Of a stretch of 64,000 bases of DNA, positions 931 through 15,861 are shown one piece after another (position 1 is the stretch's first letter; every line of letters starts with the position of its first letter). Source of the stretch: Galbibacter mesophilus (GTDB taxonomy: Bacteria; Bacteroidota; Bacteroidia; Flavobacteriales; Flavobacteriaceae); the NCBI RefSeq assembly GCF_023721415.1, contig NZ_JAMQVC010000001.1, positions 186,001 to 250,000 of the forward strand, read 5' to 3'. Below the pieces are notes generated by a model. It did no database searches. It was not told where the DNA came from and worked only from the letters and a program-made list of their open reading frames with translations. Both the position numbers and the translations under genes were made by a program.

Positions 931-1938
931 TTAACTAAAGCTTTCTTCATAAATTTTTCTAGGGGTATACTCTTGCGCTATTTCCGCCAACATTTTTATA
1001 TGCTCTGGAGTTGTTCCACAGCATCCCCCTACAATATTTACAACATTTTGCTCCATATAATCCCGTATCATTTTTTGCATTTCTTCAGCAGTTTGGTCGT
1101 ATTCCCCAAAATGATTTGGCAAACCTGCATTTGGATAAGCTGAAATATAGAAAGGTGATTTCTGCGAAAGTCTTTTTACATAGGGCAGCAACTGGTCGGC
1201 TCCCAAAGCACAGTTAAATCCGACACTCAACAATGGAATATGCGAAATACTTATTAAAAAAGCTTCGGCTGTTTGACCGGATAACGTTCTTCCGGAAGCA
1301 TCGGTAATCGTGCCACTTACCATAACAGGAGTGTCGATATTTCGCTCTTCCTTTACTTCTTCAATAGCAAATAGAGCAGCTTTGGCATTTAACGTATCAA
1401 AAATGGTTTCCACCAGCAAAACATCCACGCCACCATCTATCAAACCTTCTACTTGTTGTTTGTAGGCTATGCGAAGTTCTTCAAATGTAATGGCTCGATA
1501 GCCGGGGTCGTTTACATCTGGCGACATACTTGCCGTTCTGTTTGTAGGCCCAATGGCGCCTGCAACAAAACGTGGTTTTTCAGAGTTTCTGGCAGTGAAC
1601 TCGTCTGCAACTTTTTTAGCTATTTTGGCAGACTCATAATTGAGTTCATAAACGATATCTTCCAAATGATAATCGGCCATGGCAATGGTTGTTCCTGAAA
1701 ACGTATTGGTTTCTACGATATCTGCACCTACTTCAAAATATTTAGCGTGTACTTCTGCGATTGCCTTTGGTTGGGTAAGAGACAGTAAATCGTTATTACC
1801 CTGTAATGGATGTTCAAAATCTTTAAAACGTTCGCCTCGAAAATCGGCTTCGGTAAATTTGTACTGCTGCAACATGGTGCCCATGGCGCCGTCTAGGACT
1901 AAAATGCGTTTTTCAAGTTCTTTTCTAATATCTTTCAT
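931..1938 (-). CDS. metH: Methionine synthase, homocysteine-binding subunit (split MetH)
   Basis: 335 residues, corresponding to the N-terminal homocysteine S-methyltransferase barrel of MetH. It begins with RILVLDGAMGTMLQQYKF, a family hallmark, and keeps the zinc ligands: Cys in GFNCALGAD (near residue 242) and the Cys pair in VGGCCGTTPEHI (near residue 307). It should bind and activate homocysteine for methyl transfer from the cobalamin carried on the partner chain encoded at 1-894. The start ATG at 1938 follows a long leader with a SAM-I riboswitch and a promoter at 2335-2365. Splitting MetH after this domain is a known Bacteroidota arrangement rather than a frameshift: there is a clean stop and a 36-bp gap. 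Confidence 0.95.
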   Translation of the reverse strand: MKDIRKELEKRILVLDGAMGTMLQQYKFTEADFRGERFKDFEHPLQGNNDLLSLTQPKAIAEVHAKYFEVGADIVETNTFSGTTIAMADYHLEDIVYELNYESAKIAKKVADEFTARNSEKPRFVAGAIGPTNRTASMSPDVNDPGYRAITFEELRIAYKQQVEGLIDGGVDVLLVETIFDTLNAKAALFAIEEVKEERNIDTPVMVSGTITDASGRTLSGQTAEAFLISISHIPLLSVGFNCALGADQLLPYVKRLSQKSPFYISAYPNAGLPNHFGEYDQTAEEMQKMIRDYMEQNVVNIVGGCCGTTPEHIKMLAEIAQEYTPRKIYEESFS

Positions 1939-2073
1939 TCGTACCGATTAATCGTATTTTTCGCTTTCTTTTTTCAGCAGAAAACATGGCATAGTTCAAC
2001 TATTTGAATACTTAAATATTCAATTTGTAAGGGCGTATCAAGAATTTGTGATATAAAAAAGGAAGTCTTTTTT

Positions 2074-2306
2074 GTTATCTGTCCTTAACCACTGAAGTTT
2101 TTGAGTCTTTTTAAATCTAAGAGTCTTAAAAAGACCCTGAAACGAATTCAGGGTAAAGGTAGAACGTAGCACCTTCTTGTAGCCCCGAAACTAGTATGTA
2201 CAAGAGTCTTAAAAAACTAAATTGAATCTTAAGACCCTGAAACAAGTTCAGGGTAAAGGGTTGCTAAGGCTTCTGCGGGTCTAATCCCTACACCTTTCTT
2301 GATAAC
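2074..2306 (-). ncRNA. SAM-I riboswitch with expanded P3 and P4 (metH leader)
   Basis: Read on the minus strand, the P1 arms GTTATC (2306-2301) and GATAAC (2079-2074) enclose the SAM-I core: AAGAAAGG, AGCCTTAGCAACC and GAAGGTGCTAC. The core aligns closely with the metY leader at 14215-14334, but this RNA is 233 nt instead of 120. The extra length sits in two places. One is a 52-nt insertion in P3 (2192-2243). The other is an enlarged P4 with arms at 2083-2090 and 2152-2159 around an inserted palindrome. Both insertions contain CCCTGAA-TTTCAGGG hairpins. The P1 3' strand could alternatively pair downstream (a hairpin of AAAAAAG with CTTTTTT). That may be the expression platform, but its effect is not clear. 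Confidence 0.88.
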
Positions 2307-2334
2307 GCTCAATAAGTAATGAACAATCGAACCG

Positions 2335-4796: not shown

Positions 4797-5558
4797 TTAA
4801 AAGATTGCTACTTCCTTCGTTATTTCCGCTATTTTTTCGCGATGCTTTACTACTTCTCCGATTAAAATTATAGCCGGATTGGAAAGCTGTTTGTCAGCCA
4901 CTACCTGCTCGATAGTTTCGATGGTTCCAATACCTACTTTTTCTTCTGGAGTAGTGCCACTTTGAATAATGGCCACCGGAACATCGTGCTTATTTTCATT
5001 TTTGAACAAGGCCGTGATTTCTCCCAGTTTGCTCATGCCCATTAAAATTACCACGGTGGCAGACGACTTCGACGCCAGCACCACATCATTTGATAGTTTA
5101 TGGTTCTTGGTGGTGCCCGTAATTACCCAAAAACTTTCTGAACTTCCCCGCTTTGTAATCGGGATATTTTGATACGCCGGAACCGCTAATGCGGATGAAA
5201 TTCCGGGAACAAATTCACTTTCTACACCATGGGAAATTGCATACTCCATTTCTTCGGCGCCCCTACCAAAAACAAATGGGTCACCCCCTTTTAAACGAAC
5301 CACATGTCCATGCGCTCGTGCGCTGCTAACAATAAGTTCATTAATTTGTTCTTGTTGAAAGGCATAGCATCCTTTTCTTTTTCCCACAAAAATATGTGAA
5401 GCATTTGGTGCATGCTCCAACAATTGTGGGTTTACCAAAGCGTCGTATAAAACAATGTTGGCATTTTGTAAAGCTTTCATCCCCTTAATAGTGAGCAAGT
5501 CCGGATCTCCCGGACCTGCCCCTATCAAAGTCAGTTTTGGTTGGTTATTTGTCTGCAT
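4797..5558 (-). CDS. cobA: Uroporphyrinogen-III C-methyltransferase
   Basis: 253 residues, matching the SUMT family. The glycine-rich N-terminus LIGAGPGDPDLLTIKG (about residues 11-26) and the SAM-binding GGDPFVFGRGAEE (about residue 90) are both present, as is the VPGISSALAVPAYQNIPI segment. It methylates uroporphyrinogen III twice with SAM to give precorrin-2, the first step toward siroheme. Its start overlaps the end of the sulfite reductase gene by 14 bp, which implies translational coupling. It therefore also uses SAM made by metK in the same region. Confidence 0.95.
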   Translation of the reverse strand: MQTNNQPKLTLIGAGPGDPDLLTIKGMKALQNANIVLYDALVNPQLLEHAPNASHIFVGKRKGCYAFQQEQINELIVSSARAHGHVVRLKGGDPFVFGRGAEEMEYAISHGVESEFVPGISSALAVPAYQNIPITKRGSSESFWVITGTTKNHKLSNDVVLASKSSATVVILMGMSKLGEITALFKNENKHDVPVAIIQSGTTPEEKVGIGTIETIEQVVADKQLSNPAIILIGEVVKHREKIAEITKEVAIF

Positions 5559-7650
5559 TAGCTAATTCTAATCTTCTGAAGGCATCTGCTTTCTTGTAAA
5601 ATGCCTGCGCATCCTCAAGAAATAATTTGGCGAACTCTTCAGATGGTTTATTAATTTTGATTTGATAAACGAGATCGTGGAAAGATAAGTTTAGTGAAAC
5701 CTTCCCGGTTGAGACAAACACTTCGTCAAACTGATTTATGATACCCGCTTGGGTATTGGTTTTTTTGTTTTCTGCGGTTAACAATGCTTTGGCGGTATTT
5801 ATCAACGATGTGTACGATTGATAAATACTATCTGCCCATTTTCCTTCATTGAAAGAAAGTTGGGCTTTTTCAATTTTCTCTTCACTTTCGAAAAGAAGTG
5901 TTGCTACCAAATCGATAACTACACCGGCACATTCCCCGACACCTACTTCCTGAACATACGCTTTATCATGGCCCCAATCTACAAAATCATCTTCAGTTAG
6001 ATTGTCTGTATCTGACAAAGGTTTAAGATAATCATAAAAATATTTCTGCTCTTTTCTATCGTAATAAGCCAAGAAATTTTCTCCTTCTTCCTTATTCTGC
6101 TGAAAATCATCTAGGATAGAACGCAGTGCCTGCGGCCCTCTCTTAGATGGAATTTTTATTACTTTATCGGCAAATCTTCCTGCTCCATCTCCTAAAACGC
6201 CGCCTCCCAACAATATTTGAAGTGCTGGAGCGACCAATTTATTTTTGGTACGAATGGACATTCCTTGAAACCCAATGTGTGCCATATTGTGCTGCCCACA
6301 AGCATTCATACAGCCACTGATTTTTATAGCCACCTCGTGATTGTTAATGTATTGCGGATATTCTTTTTGCAACATGTCTTCCAATACATCGGCAATTCCT
6401 GTGCTGCTTGCAATTCCCAAATTACACGTATCTGTCCCTGGGCAAGCTGTAATATCTGCAGTGGAATTGTAACCTAAGTCTACAAAACCGAGTTCTTTCA
6501 ACTCCAAGTAAAACAAAGGCAATAAATCGGCTTTTACGTGACGGATTAAAATATCCTGACGTAATGTTAAGCGTAATTCATCAGCAGCATATTTCTGAAT
6601 TAAATGCGCCAGCTTTCTTGCTTTATCTGTATAAAAATCGCCTAGTTTAACTTTTATTCCAATGGAAAATAAACCATCTTGTTTTTGTGGATACACGTTA
6701 GCATCTCTCCACTTCTCGTATCCATCTACATCTTTTAAATCCACTTTAGGAACAGCTATTGCATCAACCACAGAGCGGTCTAAATCAAAGCCATCCTCAC
6801 TAATTGGATAAGAATGGTTTGATAGCGCCAATTTCTCCTCTTCAATCAGTTGCAGAAAAGCTTCTAGTCCAATATCTTTTATTAAGAACTTCATCCTTGC
6901 TTTTAAACGCTTTGCACGTTCCCCGTGGCGATCAAAAATTCGCAATACACTTTCAATTACTGGAATTATTTGATTCGCTGGCAAGAATTCATACATTACG
7001 TCTGCATGTCTGGGCTGAGAACCCAATCCGCCACCAAGCATTACTTTAAATCCTTTCTCACCATTTTTTATCTTCGGAATAAATCCAAGATCATGAATAT
7101 AAGAAAGTGCTGTATCACTATCTGAAGAAGAAAAGGACATTTTAAATTTACGTCCCATTTCCTGACAAATAGGGTTTCTTAAAAAGAACTGAAACGTAGC
7201 GTGCGCATAGGGTGTAACATCAAAAGGTTCGTTTGGATCGATACCCGCTTCCGGACTAGCAGTTACGTTTCTAACGGTGTTTCCGCAAGCCTCTCGAATG
7301 GTAACATCACTTTTTTCAAGTTCCGCCCACAATTCTGGCGTTCTGTCCAAACTCACGTAGTGAATCTGTATGTCTTGACGCGTAGTGATATGCAACCTAC
7401 CTCTTGAATATTCATCAGAAACATCGCAAATACGCAACAACTGATCTCCCGTTACCTTTCCGTAAGGTAATTTTATACGAACCATCTGCACGCCTTCTTG
7501 CCTTTGGCCATAAACTCCACGGGCCAAACGCAAGCTTCTAAAGCGTTCTTCATCTACTTTCCCTTCTCTAAAAAGACGAATTTTCTTTTCTAACTCAATG
7601 ATGTCTTTTTCTACAACGGGATTTTCAATCTCTGTTCTAAAACTTTGCAT
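5545..7650 (-). CDS. Sulfite (or nitrite) reductase, siroheme/4Fe-4S, with C-terminal extension
   Basis: 701 residues. Two ferrite-reductase half repeats are present: PYGKVTGDQLLRICDVSDEY near the start and a second after residue 310. The siroheme-[4Fe-4S] ligands are intact: CPGTDTC near residue 405 and CMNAC near residue 446. Typical ferredoxin-type enzymes are about 550-580 residues. Here about 140-150 helical residues follow the catalytic part (from about residue 550). Flavobacterial homologues with such a tail are often annotated as carrying a HEPN domain, but I could not verify that. Neighbours (DUF2061, siroheme genes, methionine genes) favour sulfite over nitrite as substrate. It is the second gene of the operon starting at 7927. 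Confidence 0.88.
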   Translation of the reverse strand: MQSFRTEIENPVVEKDIIELEKKIRLFREGKVDEERFRSLRLARGVYGQRQEGVQMVRIKLPYGKVTGDQLLRICDVSDEYSRGRLHITTRQDIQIHYVSLDRTPELWAELEKSDVTIREACGNTVRNVTASPEAGIDPNEPFDVTPYAHATFQFFLRNPICQEMGRKFKMSFSSSDSDTALSYIHDLGFIPKIKNGEKGFKVMLGGGLGSQPRHADVMYEFLPANQIIPVIESVLRIFDRHGERAKRLKARMKFLIKDIGLEAFLQLIEEEKLALSNHSYPISEDGFDLDRSVVDAIAVPKVDLKDVDGYEKWRDANVYPQKQDGLFSIGIKVKLGDFYTDKARKLAHLIQKYAADELRLTLRQDILIRHVKADLLPLFYLELKELGFVDLGYNSTADITACPGTDTCNLGIASSTGIADVLEDMLQKEYPQYINNHEVAIKISGCMNACGQHNMAHIGFQGMSIRTKNKLVAPALQILLGGGVLGDGAGRFADKVIKIPSKRGPQALRSILDDFQQNKEEGENFLAYYDRKEQKYFYDYLKPLSDTDNLTEDDFVDWGHDKAYVQEVGVGECAGVVIDLVATLLFESEEKIEKAQLSFNEGKWADSIYQSYTSLINTAKALLTAENKKTNTQAGIINQFDEVFVSTGKVSLNLSFHDLVYQIKINKPSEEFAKLFLEDAQAFYKKADAFRRLELANADK

Positions 7651-9266: not shown

Positions 9267-9315
9267 TCTTTATATTTTTTTGTTGGGACGAATCTATGTG
9301 TCCATCCGTTATTTT

Positions 9316-9438
9316 GGACAGGCGCATGGGTCTGTGCCTGCATTTTTTTTGGACAGACACACCGGTCTGTCACTACGGTTGTTTTATTTGATGGACATGT
9401 CCGTTGGTTACGGACAGACACCTAGGTCTGTCCCTACG
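9316..9438. repeat. Cluster of GGACAGAC/GTCTGTCC palindromes
   Basis: Four hairpin-forming palindromes follow each other. They are CAGGC/GCCTG at about 9319-9340, GACAGAC/GTCTGTC at 9352-9371, GGACATGTCC at 9393-9402, and GGACAGAC/GGTCTGTCC at 9412-9432. Two of them continue into the same CTACGGTT tail. The layout resembles REP-type extragenic palindromes. The last unit touches the stop codon of the fusion gene, so the folded RNA may protect or attenuate the transcript before metZ. Confidence 0.8.
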
Positions 9439-9439
9439 G

Positions 9440-12400
9440 TTATCCTTTTTCGGCCAATTTTAAAATGTCACCGAATACACCGCGCGCGGTAACAGCTGCT
9501 CCAGCCCCTGCTCCTTGGATTACAATAGGTCTATCTCCGTAGGATTCGGTATAAATTTCAAATATTGAATCGGCTCCCTTTACTTGTCCTAACACGCTAT
9601 CGGAAGGAACGGAAACCAATTTCACGTCCAACACACCTTTGTCCTGCTGCAAATCACCATGCAAATCTCCTACATATCGCAACACATGTCCGGGCTGCTG
9701 ATTTTTCTTCTTTTCTAAATATGGAGCATCAAATTCCCCTAAGCTTTTCAAAAACTCCGGCACATGTTTATCCCGTAATTTTTCAGGAACAAGATTTTCA
9801 ATATTCACATCTTCAAACTCGTTTTGTAAGTCCAATTCCCGTGCTAAAATGAGCAGTTTTCTACCCACATCATTTCCATATAAATCTTCCCGAGGATCTG
9901 GTTCTGTAAAACCTTCATCAATTGTATCTTTTAAAATATCACTGAAAGATTTTTCTTCCGAAGAAAACCTATTAAACAAATAACTCAACGTCCCAGAGAA
10001 AACACCTCGAATACGTGTAATATTCTCCCCAGAAAGGTGCAAAATACGAATCGTATCAATTAATGGAAGTCCGGCTCCCACATTGGTTTCATATAAATAT
10101 TGCTTCTGATTTTTCTCCAGTAAACTTCGCAGTTCTTTGTAAAAACCAAAGTCTAAAGTATTGGCAATCTTGTTGGATGACACCAAATCAAATCCACTCT
10201 CCACCAACGTTTTATAGTTTGCTACAAAATCTTTACTGGCTGTGTTGTCTATCGCAATTAAATTTTCCAAATGATGATCTTTTGCAAAAGCAATTACATC
10301 GTTCACTTGCGCCGAATGGTTTGTAGATTTAATAGCATCACGCCAATTTGTATCGATACCTTCTTTCGCAAGCAACAACTGTCTGGAATTGGAAACCGCA
10401 AAAATGTTCAATTTAATTTTCTTACGCTCTTCAATATTTGCTGCGGAAGTAAGGATTTGGTCTATCAGCGTTCCACCCACTAATCCATGGCCGAAAATTG
10501 CGATGTTTATTTTTTTGGAAATTTCGAAAATCTCACCGTGAATTACGTTCAGTGCCTTATGAAGCTCGGATTTTTTCACCACCAAACTCACATTCTTTCC
10601 CGTAACGGTATTGTTGAACAAAATTGGAATCACTTGATTCTTTATCAGCGCGTTATAAGGTTTGTGAAACGAACTTAAATCTTGCCCAATAATGGAAATC
10701 ACCGACACATCATCCACCACGGAAATTTTATTGACATCTTTGGAGTAAAAATCGTTTTCAAACTCTTTTTCCAAAGCAATCATTGCCTCGGTAGCATCTT
10801 TAGCATTTACCACCAATCCAATTCCTCTTTCCGAAGAACCTTGTGAAATTATACTTACACTAATATCCTTTCTACCAAGCGCATTAAAAATTCGGGCATC
10901 CACACCGGCTTTCCCAAGCAAACCTCGTCCTTCCAAATTAACCAACGCCACATTTTCCAGAACTGACAGCGATTTAATCCCTTCTTTTTTCGGGTTAGCC
11001 GTTATAAGCGTTCCTTTGTTGTCGTGATTGAAAGTATTTAAAATACGTAATGGAATATTCTTTTCCAGAAGCGGAATTATGGTCTTTGCATGCAAAATAG
11101 TTGCTCCAAAATTTGCTAGCTCATTGGCTTCGTTAAAAGATAATTCTTCAATTCGTTGCGCTGTTGGCACCAAGTCCGGATTCGCGGTAAAAATACCATC
11201 TACATGTGTAAAACTTTGTAATTCGCCAGCATCAAGGAAATTAGCCAATAAAGAAGCAGTATAATTACTGCCATTTCTACCCAAAGTAGTGGTTTCATTG
11301 TTTTTGTTGGAACCTATAAATCCGGTTACAATATTGACCGTAGTTCCATTATGTTTGGCAAAATGCTTTAAAACATTTTCTTTGGAAGTTTTCTCCAACG
11401 GCTGTGCATCTCCAAACTTTTCATCGGTTTTAATGAGTTCACGCGAATCTGTAAAATTGGCATTGATTCCTTTTTCTAGAAGGATTTCAGTTATAAGCTT
11501 TGCCGAAATAATTTCGCCTTGTGCTAATACCTCATCTTTGATTTTGGTACTGAAATCGCCCAACAAACTAACACCGGAAAACAATTTTTCCAATCGGTCG
11601 AATTCGACAGACAAATCGGCTTTTGGATAATCTTCGGTTTGATATTTTTTAAAAGCCTCGAATAAATGTCCATAATCCTGCCCATCCGCTGCGGTTTCCA
11701 AGATACTTTCTAGCTCGTTTGTGGCATTGTTTCTTGCGGAAACAACAACGGTTATGCGCTCCCCTTCTTTAACTTTATTCTCTATAATCTCTACAACATT
11801 GTTAATCCCTTTACCATTGGCAAGCGATTTCCCTCCAAATTTTAATACTTTCATTTTATTGTCTTTAAGGGCCGATTGAAATATGTTCCCTATTAATTTT
11901 TCCAATTGTTCATATTCTATTAAAAACGCATCATGTCCGTGCACCGAAACCACTTCCCCGTAACGCACACGGTCGCTCGATTGCGCCAACTGCTTGTAGG
12001 TTTCGCGGTTTTCTTCAGCAGTAAAAAACAAATCTGAATTCACCCCAATAATGTGCACATTCGCATCGATAGACTCCAAAACATTGAAATGCTCGGGACG
12101 ATCTCGGGTTACATCAATTGTTTTTAGCAACTGATTCATTAATTTATAAGCTGAAAGCTGAAAGCGTTCCTGTAATTTTTTCCCGTGATGAAGCAACCAA
12201 CTTTCCACATTGAAAACTTGCAACTCCTCATTTGTGGTACGTTTGAAACGGGATTTAAACGACTCTGGAGTTCGGTAACAAAGCATGGCGTGCATACGCG
12301 CATCGTGTACCGGTTGCTTGGAATTCACCAAAAACTGTTCTTGAATTTGACAATTTGCAATCAACCAATCAGTAGATTTCCAATCGGTAGCCACGGGAAT

Positions 12401-12835
12401 AAAATGTTCGGTTATCGCAGGCTTTAGCGCAACCATTTCCCAAGCGATTCCTCCGCCAAGGGAGCCCCCGATAAGTGCGTACAATTTTTTAATTTGAAGC
12501 GCTTCCAGTCCCAAAAGAAAAATCCGAGCCACATCGCGCGCTACAAAATCTTTATAATTATCAATTACAAATCCGTCATAGCCATTCCCAGGAACATTAA
12601 AAGCTAAAATGGTGTAGTAGTTTGTATCGATAGCTTTTCCTTCACCTATTAAATCTTTCCACCAACCCTGCTCACCACTAACGTCAGAATTTCCTGTAAG
12701 CGCATGGTTCACCATCACGATAGGAGCGCTGTGCAAAGGCTTACCAAACAATTGATACGATAGGTTTATGTCTTGCGAAGCACCACTTAACGTTTGAAAG
12801 TCTTTTAAAGGAATATGTAACAATTTATCTGTCAA
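9440..12835 (-). CDS. Three-part fusion: homoserine O-acyltransferase (MetX-like), aspartokinase, homoserine dehydrogenase
   Basis: 1131 residues in one uninterrupted frame. Residues 1 to about 325 are an alpha/beta hydrolase of the MetX family: VMVNHALTGNSDV, nucleophile elbow IGGSLGGG, the Asp of NSDLFF and the His of VHGHDAF. At residue 328, MKVLKFGGKSLANGKGI begins a ThrA-type aspartokinase with TTLGRNGSNYTA and ACT regulatory segments. From about residue 775 comes homoserine dehydrogenase (INIAIFGHGLVGGTL, NVGAGLPLIDTI, FTEPDPREDLYGNDVGRK). One chain would thus carry the first and third steps from aspartate plus homoserine acylation. The start is TTG at 12835, 5 bp after metY; the next in-frame ATG would remove conserved sequence. 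The first domain is shorter than classical MetX. Confidence 0.93.
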   Translation of the reverse strand: MTDKLLHIPLKDFQTLSGASQDINLSYQLFGKPLHSAPIVMVNHALTGNSDVSGEQGWWKDLIGEGKAIDTNYYTILAFNVPGNGYDGFVIDNYKDFVARDVARIFLLGLEALQIKKLYALIGGSLGGGIAWEMVALKPAITEHFIPVATDWKSTDWLIANCQIQEQFLVNSKQPVHDARMHAMLCYRTPESFKSRFKRTTNEELQVFNVESWLLHHGKKLQERFQLSAYKLMNQLLKTIDVTRDRPEHFNVLESIDANVHIIGVNSDLFFTAEENRETYKQLAQSSDRVRYGEVVSVHGHDAFLIEYEQLEKLIGNIFQSALKDNKMKVLKFGGKSLANGKGINNVVEIIENKVKEGERITVVVSARNNATNELESILETAADGQDYGHLFEAFKKYQTEDYPKADLSVEFDRLEKLFSGVSLLGDFSTKIKDEVLAQGEIISAKLITEILLEKGINANFTDSRELIKTDEKFGDAQPLEKTSKENVLKHFAKHNGTTVNIVTGFIGSNKNNETTTLGRNGSNYTASLLANFLDAGELQSFTHVDGIFTANPDLVPTAQRIEELSFNEANELANFGATILHAKTIIPLLEKNIPLRILNTFNHDNKGTLITANPKKEGIKSLSVLENVALVNLEGRGLLGKAGVDARIFNALGRKDISVSIISQGSSERGIGLVVNAKDATEAMIALEKEFENDFYSKDVNKISVVDDVSVISIIGQDLSSFHKPYNALIKNQVIPILFNNTVTGKNVSLVVKKSELHKALNVIHGEIFEISKKINIAIFGHGLVGGTLIDQILTSAANIEERKKIKLNIFAVSNSRQLLLAKEGIDTNWRDAIKSTNHSAQVNDVIAFAKDHHLENLIAIDNTASKDFVANYKTLVESGFDLVSSNKIANTLDFGFYKELRSLLEKNQKQYLYETNVGAGLPLIDTIRILHLSGENITRIRGVFSGTLSYLFNRFSSEEKSFSDILKDTIDEGFTEPDPREDLYGNDVGRKLLILARELDLQNEFEDVNIENLVPEKLRDKHVPEFLKSLGEFDAPYLEKKKNQQPGHVLRYVGDLHGDLQQDKGVLDVKLVSVPSDSVLGQVKGADSIFEIYTESYGDRPIVIQGAGAGAAVTARGVFGDILKLAEKG

Positions 12836-12840
12836 GGTAT

Positions 12841-14121
12841 TTATTTTTTAATTTTTTCAAAGGCCTTTTTTAGGTCTGCTTTAAGGTCTTCAATTGCTTC
12901 AAGGCCTACTGAAAGCCGTATTAAATCTTTTGTAACTCCTGTAGCCAATTGAGATTCGTCATTTAATTGTTGATGGGTTGTACTTGCTGGATGGATAATC
13001 AATGATTTGGTATCGCCAATATTGGCCAACAGGGAAAATATCTCGGTAGTATCCGCTACTATTTTAGCCGATTCATAGCCTCCATGAACACCAAATGTAA
13101 CCAAACCGCTTTGTCCTTCCGGCAAGTATTCATCAGCTAATTTTTTATATTGATTGCCTTCCAGCCCTGGATATTTTACCCATGCCACTTCTGGTTGATC
13201 CTGTAACCACTTGGCAAGTTCCAAAGCATTTTCACTATGTTTTTTTATTCTGATAGGAAGCGTTTCCAAACCTTGTAAAATCTGAAATGCATTCAGCGGA
13301 CTAAGTGCCGCACCGAAATCGCGTAAACCTTCAATTCTAACTTTAGCAATGAAAGCAGCTTCTTTAAGCACTTCGTGATATACCAATCCGTGATAACTTG
13401 GCGAAGGCTCGGTAAATTCCGGAAACTTACCATTGCCCCAATTAAATGTACCTGCATCTACAATAACGCCTCCCAATGAAGTTCCATTTCCGCAGATGTA
13501 TTTGGTTAAAGAATGAATAACAATATTTGCTCCATGCTCAATTGGTTTTACCAAATATGAAGTAGCTACCGTATTATCAACAATTAACGGAACTTCTGCT
13601 TTCTTCGCTTCCGAAGCAATTGCTTTAATATCCAACACATCAAGTTTTGGATTTCCTAACGACTCTATAAAAATTGCGCGTGTATTATCTTGAACTGCTG
13701 CTTGAAAATTGCCTGCTTCGTCTGGATCTACAAATGTGGTTGTGATTCCCAGCCTAGGCAATGTATTACTCAATAAGTTATACGTTCCGCCATACAAGCT
13801 ACTGGAAGCTACGATATGATCTCCTGATTTCAATAGTGTTAAAAGCGCTGTTGAAATTGCTGAAGTACCAGAAGCGGTCACTACCGCTGCAATCCCTCCA
13901 TCTAAAGCGGCTAGGCGCTGCTCCAAAACATCGTTGGTTGGGTTATTTAGGCGCGTGTAGATAAAACCTGGCTCAGATAAATTAAATAGATTGGCGGCAT
14001 GGTCTGCATTATTAAAAACATATGATGATGTTTGGTAGATGGGCACTGCTCTTGTACCTCCATTACTTTTCACATCGTGACCAGCATGTAATGCGTTTGT
14101 TGAAAATTCTTGTTTACCCAT
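12841..14121 (-). CDS. metY: O-acetylhomoserine sulfhydrylase (aminocarboxypropyltransferase)
   Basis: 426 residues, the usual size of MetY. It opens with FSTNALHAGHD. The PLP lysine is in IVIHSLTKYICGNGTSLGG near residue 209, and the C-terminus has SLLANIGDTKSLIIHPASTTHQQL. It forms homocysteine from O-acetylhomoserine and sulfide, so it uses both the acyl-homoserine made by the fusion protein downstream and the sulfide from sulfite reductase. It is the first gene of the operon and is preceded by the SAM-I riboswitch at 14215-14334. The stop is only 5 bp from the next start, implying coupled translation. Confidence 0.94.
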   Translation of the reverse strand: MGKQEFSTNALHAGHDVKSNGGTRAVPIYQTSSYVFNNADHAANLFNLSEPGFIYTRLNNPTNDVLEQRLAALDGGIAAVVTASGTSAISTALLTLLKSGDHIVASSSLYGGTYNLLSNTLPRLGITTTFVDPDEAGNFQAAVQDNTRAIFIESLGNPKLDVLDIKAIASEAKKAEVPLIVDNTVATSYLVKPIEHGANIVIHSLTKYICGNGTSLGGVIVDAGTFNWGNGKFPEFTEPSPSYHGLVYHEVLKEAAFIAKVRIEGLRDFGAALSPLNAFQILQGLETLPIRIKKHSENALELAKWLQDQPEVAWVKYPGLEGNQYKKLADEYLPEGQSGLVTFGVHGGYESAKIVADTTEIFSLLANIGDTKSLIIHPASTTHQQLNDESQLATGVTKDLIRLSVGLEAIEDLKADLKKAFEKIKK

Positions 14122-14214
14122 TTCTTTTATTTTTTAATTAATTCTTGCCGAACAAATAGCTCGACCAAAAAAATGTTAACAAGAAAAACGTAAACGTGTA
14201 AGAATAAAATTCTT
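14122..14214 (-). promoter_or_regulatory. Possible expression platform between metY riboswitch and start codon
   Basis: In the RNA, AACAAGAA from the P1 3' side can pair with TTCTTGTT about 25 nt downstream (14178-14185 on the plus strand), followed closely by a run of seven U. This would make a terminator-like hairpin that shares bases with P1. A similar overlap exists in the metH leader. Which state SAM favours cannot be decided by eye. Confidence 0.4.
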
Positions 14215-14334
14215 GTTATCTATCCACATTAAAATGTGGTAGAATGTAGCACCTTCTTGTAGCCCCGAAACAAATTCAGGGTAAAGGGTTGCTAAGGCAT
14301 CAACAGGTCTATTCCCTCCGCCTTTCTTGATAAC
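14215..14334 (-). ncRNA. SAM-I riboswitch (metY leader)
   Basis: Minus-strand RNA of about 120 nt. P1 is GTTATC (14334-14329) with GATAAC (14220-14215). P2 pairs AAGGC with GCCTT around the conserved GGAGGGAATAGACCTG block, followed by TTAGCAACC. P3 is CCCTGAA with TTCGGGG. The joining sequence GAAGGTGC comes next, and P4 is CCACAT/ATGTGG. This is the standard SAM-I (S-box) layout. It controls metY, the metX-thrA fusion and probably metZ. Upstream of P1 I see no clear -7/-33 promoter pair. Confidence 0.92.
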
Positions 14335-14469
14335 ATTAACAATTTATTTATGAACTTCCCATCGAGTGGGTATTTTTACTTAAATATTTATTAGGAAACT
14401 CCTAAAACATCGAACTCCAAAGATTCAGAAAATATATTTGATTTTCCAAAGGATACATTGGAAATTTGG

Positions 14470-15726
14470 CTATAAACCAAAAGTTTCTTTTACTTTATCT
14501 ACAAAATCCAATTTCTCCCACGTAAACAACTCAACTTCCCTTTCAATTCTACCGTTGTAAGGTGATTCGAAAACCTTTGTTACCGTTTGCGGTTGTTTCC
14601 CCATATGTCCGTAAGCAGCCGACTCCAAATAAATTGGATTTCTAAGCTTCAATCGCTCTTCAATAGCAAAAGGACGCATGTCGAAAAGTTCCGCTACTTT
14701 TTTGGCAATTTCTCCATCTTTTAAGTCAACATTCGCACTTCCGTAAGTATTTACAAAAATAGAAGTAGGCTCCACCACTCCAATGGCGTAACTCACTTGC
14801 ACTAGAACCTCATCGGCAACACCAGCCGCTACTAGGTTTTTGGCTATGTGCCTTGCCGCATAAGCCGCACTTCGGTCTACTTTACTCGGGTCTTTTCCGC
14901 TAAAAGCACCACCTCCGTGTGCTCCTTTTCCACCATAAGTATCAACTATAATTTTTCTTCCTGTTAATCCGCTATCTCCGTGAGGCCCCCCAATTACAAA
15001 CTTTCCGGTTGGGTTGATATGGTATTTTATATCTTCACTGAAGAGCGTTTGAACATATTCCGGTAATTGTGCTATAACCCTCGGCATTAAAATTTCCAAG
15101 ATATCCTTTTTGATTTTAGCCAACATCTTTTCATCATCAGCATCAAAAGGATCGTGTTGCGTAGAAATTACGATGGTATCAATACGCTGTGGCACGTTTT
15201 CATCAGAATATTCTATGGTTACTTGCGCTTTTGCATCAGGTCTTAAGTAGGTAATCTCCTTTTCTTCCTTCCGAAGATTAGCCAACTCCATTAAAATTTT
15301 ATGGGAAATATCTAACGCCAAAGGCATGTAGTTTTCGGTTTCGTTGGTTGCATAGCCAAACATCATCCCTTGATCTCCTGCCCCTTGTTCTTCTTTGGAA
15401 GCACGGTCTACCCCTTGATTGATGTCTTGTGATTGCTCATGGATTAACGAAATAACACCACAGGAATCCCCACTGAATTGATATGCACCTTTGGTGTAAC
15501 CAATTTTGTTGATTACCTCGCGAGCCAAAGACTGAACATCAAGGTAAGTAGCACTTTTTACTTCTCCTGCCAGTACTACTTGTCCTGTGGTAACCAACGT
15601 TTCGCAAGCCACCTTACTTTCAGGATCGAATGCTAAAAAATTATCTAAAAGCGCGTCGCTAATTTGATCTGCTATTTTATCAGGATGTCCTTCACTAACC
15701 GACTCTGATGTAAATAAATATGCCAT
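14470..15726 (-). CDS. metK: S-adenosylmethionine synthetase
   Basis: 418 residues. Hallmarks include SVSEGHPDKIADQISDALLD near the N-terminus, the acidic-loop hexapeptide GAGDQG (near residue 116), and the phosphate-binding GGGAFSGKDPSKVDRSAAY near residue 270. It makes SAM from methionine and ATP. The length is slightly above E. coli MetK (384), with the extra residues in the central domain, as in other Bacteroidota. The leader carries a SAM-II-type aptamer (15789-15845), so the product of this enzyme probably represses its own gene through an RNA of a different class from those of the other met operons. Confidence 0.96.
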   Translation of the reverse strand: MAYLFTSESVSEGHPDKIADQISDALLDNFLAFDPESKVACETLVTTGQVVLAGEVKSATYLDVQSLAREVINKIGYTKGAYQFSGDSCGVISLIHEQSQDINQGVDRASKEEQGAGDQGMMFGYATNETENYMPLALDISHKILMELANLRKEEKEITYLRPDAKAQVTIEYSDENVPQRIDTIVISTQHDPFDADDEKMLAKIKKDILEILMPRVIAQLPEYVQTLFSEDIKYHINPTGKFVIGGPHGDSGLTGRKIIVDTYGGKGAHGGGAFSGKDPSKVDRSAAYAARHIAKNLVAAGVADEVLVQVSYAIGVVEPTSIFVNTYGSANVDLKDGEIAKKVAELFDMRPFAIEERLKLRNPIYLESAAYGHMGKQPQTVTKVFESPYNGRIEREVELFTWEKLDFVDKVKETFGL

Positions 15727-15788
15727 AAATTTTAAATTCTATATGTAAAGGAGAAAAAGAATTTTGACAGGCACGTCTAAAGGAGTTC

Positions 15789-15845
15789 TTCACTGCTTTA
15801 GCTCTTTTTTTACGAGGTGGCAATCAGTCAAATCTTTCCTCAAAA
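15789..15845 (-). ncRNA. SAM-II-type riboswitch (metK leader)
   Basis: Read on the minus strand, GAGG pairs with CCTC as P1. The conserved loop GATTTGACTGATTGC and the 3' segment AGCTAAAGCAGT follow the SAM-II (metA/SAM_alpha) order: GATTT, ATTGC, GT-A-rich, AGCTAAA. The pseudoknot pairing is also kept, ACTG in the loop with CAGT after GCTAAAG. Two base changes from classical examples occur together in this helix, which is compensatory. Downstream, CTAAAG in the core can pair with CTTTAG, a possible alternative fold. A TACATTTG promoter box at 15854-15861 ends just before the aptamer. SAM-II is best known from Alphaproteobacteria; I cannot run a covariance search here. Confidence 0.78.
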
Positions 15846-15853
15846 TTCTGGTA

Positions 15854-15861
15854 CAAATGTA
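15854..15861 (-). promoter_or_regulatory. Promoter -7 box for metK
   Basis: TACATTTG on the minus strand matches TAnnTTTG exactly and places the transcript start at the first bases of the SAM-II aptamer. No TTG is found at the expected upstream distance. Confidence 0.5.

Follow-up and report, generated by a model that had tools for sequence, protein, structure and literature searches.

The metK leader of Galbibacter mesophilus carries a SAM-II aptamer of family RF01726, and we propose, with a probability of roughly 0.6, that this element represses metK at high SAM by exchanging strands with an anti-aptamer spacer and thereby hindering the start codon. For the Flavobacteriaceae at large it is about an even call that SAM-II elements share a conserved strand-exchange platform, in which the spacer complements both halves of the aptamer and, without ligand, the RNA undergoes complete refolding rather than just an opening of its pseudoknot. 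If real, such strand exchange would be a SAM-II mechanism distinct from both direct occlusion and termination. SAM-II is the textbook riboswitch that conceals a Shine-Dalgarno sequence inside its aptamer. What, then, of the large SAM-II branch that sits in bacteria without Shine-Dalgarno use? The anti-aptamer spacer offers a concrete and testable answer, and this conserved stretch is the part of the leader worth follow-up.

In the mechanism envisaged, the transcript would begin just before the aptamer, from the promoter box. At low SAM the spacer would fold back and dismantle the aptamer, block 2' pairing with CUAAAGCAGU (helix A) and block 1' pairing with GAGGAAAGAUUUGAC (helix B); the A/U-rich start region would stay free and metK would be translated. 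With SAM bound, the aptamer would retain strands 1 and 2, blocks 1' and 2' would be set free, and the freed spacer would pair around the start codon and slow initiation. Computation establishes the aptamer, the position of the promoter, the conserved complementarity of the spacer to the aptamer and the lack of intrinsic terminators; we infer that SAM binds, that the response is repression and that control acts on translation. The expression of metK would on this account depend on the spacer sequences ACTCCTTTAG and GTCAAAATTC. The features concerned are collected in Table 1.

Table 1. Features of the metK leader and of the neighboring met genes (window coordinates)
Feature	Position	Strand	Evidence
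metH, homocysteine-methyltransferase half	931..1938	-	PF02574, E 2.6e-100
SAM-I-like metH leader with long insertions	2142..2308	-	RF00162, 31.2 bits; true 3' end probably near 2073
metY, O-acetylhomoserine sulfhydrylase	12841..14121	-	TIGR01326, E 3e-191
SAM-I riboswitch of metY	14213..14336	-	RF00162, 76.1 bits (cut-off 44.4)
metK, methionine adenosyltransferase	14470..15726	-	TIGR01034, 504.6 bits, E 1.6e-151
Alternative start-codon pairing, tentative: GTGCC (15774-15770) with GGCAT (15724-15720), AAATTC with GAATTT	15720..15774	-	in minimum-energy structure
Candidate anti-aptamer block 1', GTCAAAATTCTTTTTCTC, pairing with strand 1 as helix B	15751..15768	-	pair probabilities about 0.4-0.7, start codon included
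Candidate anti-aptamer block 2', ACTCCTTTAG, pairing with strand 2 as helix A with one mismatch	15777..15786	-	pair probabilities 0.94-0.98
SAM-II (long loop) aptamer, RF01726	15847..15788	-	66.8 bits, E 1.1e-10, all 60 positions
Aptamer strand 2, CTAAAGCAGT, holding the conserved GCTAAA segment and the 3' strand of the pseudoknot	15792..15801	-	mean spacer pairing 0.89
Aptamer strand 1, P1 5' strand and core GAGGAAAGATTTGAC	15827..15841	-	mean spacer pairing 0.93
Bacteroidetes -7 promoter box TACATTTG (TAnnTTTG)	15854..15861	-	sequence

The aptamer, its promoter and the leader

Running cmscan at gathering cut-offs on the window (the whole 64,000-nucleotide stretch of DNA analyzed here) gave two matches, the SAM-I element of metY and the SAM-II element before metK; in the whole 3.77-Mb genome the only copies of either class are this SAM-II element and the two SAM-I elements of the window. 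The cut-off for RF01726 is 44 bits, and the alignment of the metK aptamer covers all 60 positions with zero non-standard pairs. Its P1 strands (GAGG, 15841-15838; CCTC, 15817-15814), GATTTGAC (15834-15827), the mutually complementary pseudoknot strands ACTG (15828-15825) and CAGT (15795-15792), and GCTAAA (15802-15797) all lie on the minus strand, and a single instance of the core pattern is present in the window, against none in 100 shuffles. The preliminary description had listed these elements and proposed a SAM-II-type riboswitch on metK, and both observations stand, the gene itself being recognized by TIGR01034. With the score above the cut-off, the P1 stem and pseudoknot in place, and the setting a metK leader in Bacteroidetes, the leader holds, as judged from its sequence, a genuine SAM-II riboswitch of an ordinary kind, belonging to a known family in the taxon where that family is known.

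Weinberg et al. (PMC2864571, Table 1) introduced RF01726 in 2010 from sequences of Bacteroidetes and of marine origin, a point against the preliminary description, which had SAM-II as best known from Alphaproteobacteria. The family is like the present element in aptamer sequence, P1 stem, pseudoknot, taxon and met-gene context. The Rfam model describes the 60-nt aptamer only, and the anti-aptamer spacer falls outside it. The preliminary description had put forward the models RF00521 and RF00162: the second passes at metY, whereas the first (SAM-II or SAM_alpha, of Alphaproteobacteria) scores 13.5 bits at the metK aptamer against a cut-off of 36, which rules out membership. The RF00521 aptamers of Alphaproteobacteria share their type of core and their H-type pseudoknot with RF01726.

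The -7 box has its upstream edge at 15861, the very boundary given in the preliminary description. Of 129 relatives, 126 have a TAnnTTTG box no more than 60 nt upstream of the aptamer core (6.9 are predicted by shuffles), nearly all of them at 24-35 nt and most at 25-32 nt. In F. psychrophilum this box sits at -12 to -5 (PMC9723704); from that spacing and the position of the box in the window, metK transcription is predicted to begin at about 15849, two bases ahead of the aptamer.

Between the end of the aptamer and the metK start codon there are 65 nt in the window and about 46-112 nt in the relatives analyzed. In reviews, SAM-II is described as directly occluding a ribosome-binding site that lies within its aptamer (PMC10907184), and the ribosomes of Bacteroidia reportedly do not recognize Shine-Dalgarno sequences (PMC9976891). 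On these grounds a different platform is to be expected.

Complementarity between spacer and aptamer

In the family leaders listed, two recurrent spacer blocks complement the aptamer. One is CTTTAG-like and faces CUAAAG...CAGU; the other is GTCAAATC or GCAATC, facing GAUUUGAC or GAUUGC, respectively. The CTTTAG of block 2' is unbroken in the window and in all six congeners examined. Spacer statistics were computed for 129 metK leaders of relatives, whose genera are statistically non-independent, against dinucleotide shuffles of the spacer. The duplex of strand 1 with the spacer has an energy of -15.7 kcal/mol, versus -10.7 kcal/mol for shuffled spacers, while a control strand taken from further upstream gives -4.9 versus -5.1 kcal/mol. 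The leader RNA to the start codon was also folded by partition function, pseudoknot and ligand energies lying outside the model. Pairing of strand 1 with the spacer exceeds 0.5 in 120 of the 129 leaders (27 for shuffle means), and pairing of strand 2 (GCUAAA...CAGU) does so in 91 (2 for shuffle means); the local P1 helix is nearly gone (0.015 versus 0.166).

For the window leader, the strand 1 value is matched by 4 of 500 shuffles and the strand 2 value by 5 of 500; none of the 500 matches both jointly. With the start codon in the folded RNA, helix A holds, and helix B contends with P1 plus a start-codon pairing. Helices A and B are both found in the minimum-energy structure of all six congeners. 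In the sister family, f2, strand 1 pairs strongly with the spacer, at 0.67-0.79 (reached by 0-19 of 100 shuffles), but strand 2 does not. These foldings suggest that the downstream half of the leader can refold in a conserved manner that dismantles the aptamer. A search of the main texts of open-access papers returned no description of an anti-aptamer spacer for SAM-II, and the SAM-II expression platform of Flavobacteriaceae seems undescribed so far.

Proposed readout at the start codon and competing explanations

How would the refolding reach metK? To mimic the form with SAM bound, the aptamer was kept out of pairing. Over the 129 leaders, the cost of opening the region -15..+6 then rises from 3.5 to 5.0 kcal/mol, as against 4.5 to 4.7 kcal/mol in the same test with shuffled spacers, and the rise exceeds the shuffled one in 100 of the 129 (p 2e-12). 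The effect is confined to this region, being absent for -20..+13 and reversed for -30..0. In the window leader, start-region pairing is the same in the two regimes when 60 nt of coding sequence are included (0.54 and 0.54), and is 0.40 and 0.56 with 15 nt. Averaged over relatives, the start region is thus modeled as harder to open with the aptamer held, and no such change is clear in the window's own leader. The rise in opening cost favors translation control, and control likely acts at that level; structure close to the start codon tunes initiation in F. johnsoniae (PMC6847099).

The GTGCC/GGCAT and AAATTC/GAATTT pairing competes with helix B, and its exact pairs vary within the genus. As a candidate for sequestration of the start codon in the window, GTGCC/GGCAT was set aside: the pairs are lost in some congeners, and start pairing shows no clear change.

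The rival that fares best, though we consider it unlikely, is SAM-dependent premature termination in the spacer, intrinsic or Rho-dependent, of the kind predicted for S. meliloti metZ. Termination is known for another SAM-II element (PMC9373788), and the freed spacer, being pyrimidine-rich and G-poor, would suit Rho. Against an intrinsic attenuator, however, no intrinsic terminator was found in the window, and terminator-like hairpins occur in the spacers of 0 of the 129 relatives, versus 1.7 for shuffles. The S. meliloti metA and metZ elements are SAM-II aptamers on methionine genes, as here, and control at metA reaches a start codon 74 nt downstream; they differ in using a Shine-Dalgarno sequence in the riboswitch or a terminator, neither of which was found in the present leader (PMC9373788).

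It is still less probable that the spacer complementarity arises from composition or common ancestry and is no expression platform, the aptamer working in some simpler way. The leaders are related, and compensatory changes in the helices cannot be counted because the aptamer strands hardly vary; a third family of the same class (f11) has neither strand 1 nor strand 2 spacer complementarity. That said, the dinucleotide shuffles and the control strand are far surpassed, and the complement is retained although spacer sequences differ widely among genera, GTCAAATC occurring in one group and GCAATC in another. Moreover, the type of block follows the aptamer variant (Fisher 9e-9, kinship of the leaders ignored). 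Swapping strands between aptamer types gave a non-reciprocal outcome.

Canonical direct occlusion, in which SAM binding would hide a ribosome-binding site in the 3' strand of the aptamer, is equally improbable and is rejected for metK because of the length of the spacer, which leaves neither site nor start codon within or beside the aptamer, the spacing in relatives and the reported lack of Shine-Dalgarno pairing in Bacteroidia pointing the same way; it is the accepted mechanism in reviews of the class, and in one relative (L220, genome G055) the aptamer abuts the metH start codon at its 3' end with zero spacer, possibly a direct-occlusion form within the same family.

SAM-I and SAM-II in the gene block and among relatives

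The SAM-I S-box (RF00162) serves the same ligand and pathway as SAM-II with an unrelated fold, and the preliminary description held that two such folds together were uncommon. A survey of 149 Flavobacteriaceae genomes, nearly one per genus, led us to drop this idea: RF01726 is present in 141, RF00162 in 118 and both in 114, so that coexistence is the norm in the family. The intuition did have a historical basis, since a 2007 survey by Barrick and Breaker stated that SAM-I and SAM-II did not occur together in any one species (PMC2258182), a statement that no longer holds. The further suggestion of the preliminary description, that different kinetics or affinities could tune SAM synthesis separately from that of methionine, is speculative. 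Four genomes (G048, G066, G118 and G138) have SAM-I without SAM-II. A phylum-wide scan of 395 genomes recovered RF01726 in 63, mostly of this family and otherwise from elsewhere in the order and class.

Among family leaders with a called gene, SAM-II is followed by metK in 136 of 138, by metY in one and by metH in one. Several genomes, among them G001, G026, G032, G056, G104, G120 and G126, repeat the window's order of SAM-II, metK and SAM-I, in which SAM-I follows some 1.5 kb downstream on the same strand; in another arrangement, seen in G038, SAM-I and SAM-II are divergent with about 130 bases between them. In some marine relatives SAM-II precedes metY, and at L012, L089, L144, L148 and L166 it stands there in place of SAM-I. 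As SAM-I is undetected in the genome of L012 (G004), one sensor class seems to have replaced the other on the same gene. In streamlined marine flavobacteria (L131:1362-6192; also L292, L293 and L294) a second SAM-II heads a run comprising a queF-like gene (PF14489), a gene for a DUF6580 membrane protein and a split metH.

SAM-I elements had been described on both metY and metH in the window. The metY assignment is secure, and that of metH is weaker, its score falling under the cut-off of 44.4 bits (E 0.0019 in 24 kb), apparently because of the long insertions; the core motifs are kept. The metH element is closely like that of metY over the first 80 bases, the insertions coming further on. A P3 hairpin, CCCTGAAnTnGTTTCnGGG, is common to both leaders (window 2073-2308 and 14213-14336) and is present in two copies in that of metH, in addition to the insertions. 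The genome contains five copies of it with at most 3 mismatches, three of them in these two leaders; so few copies, and their location, suggest that the two leaders stem from duplication of one SAM-I element. The notion that the hairpin is a genome-wide repeat is unsupported by this count.

Several other features of the block may be recorded. Flanked by the metH leader and a pyridine-nucleotide oxidoreductase is a 186-aa ORF (2429-2989) with zero matches in Pfam or NCBIfam. The sulfite/nitrite reductase-like protein encoded at 5545-7650 has an extra C-terminal stretch, with a weak resemblance to HEPN (21.8 bits, slightly under the cut-off). The gene at 9440-12835 encodes a protein of 1131 aa in which a MetX-like acyltransferase domain is fused with aspartokinase and homoserine dehydrogenase, and between this gene and the next PLP enzyme (9290-9440) there are imperfect repeats of the form GGACAGAC...GTCTGTCC.
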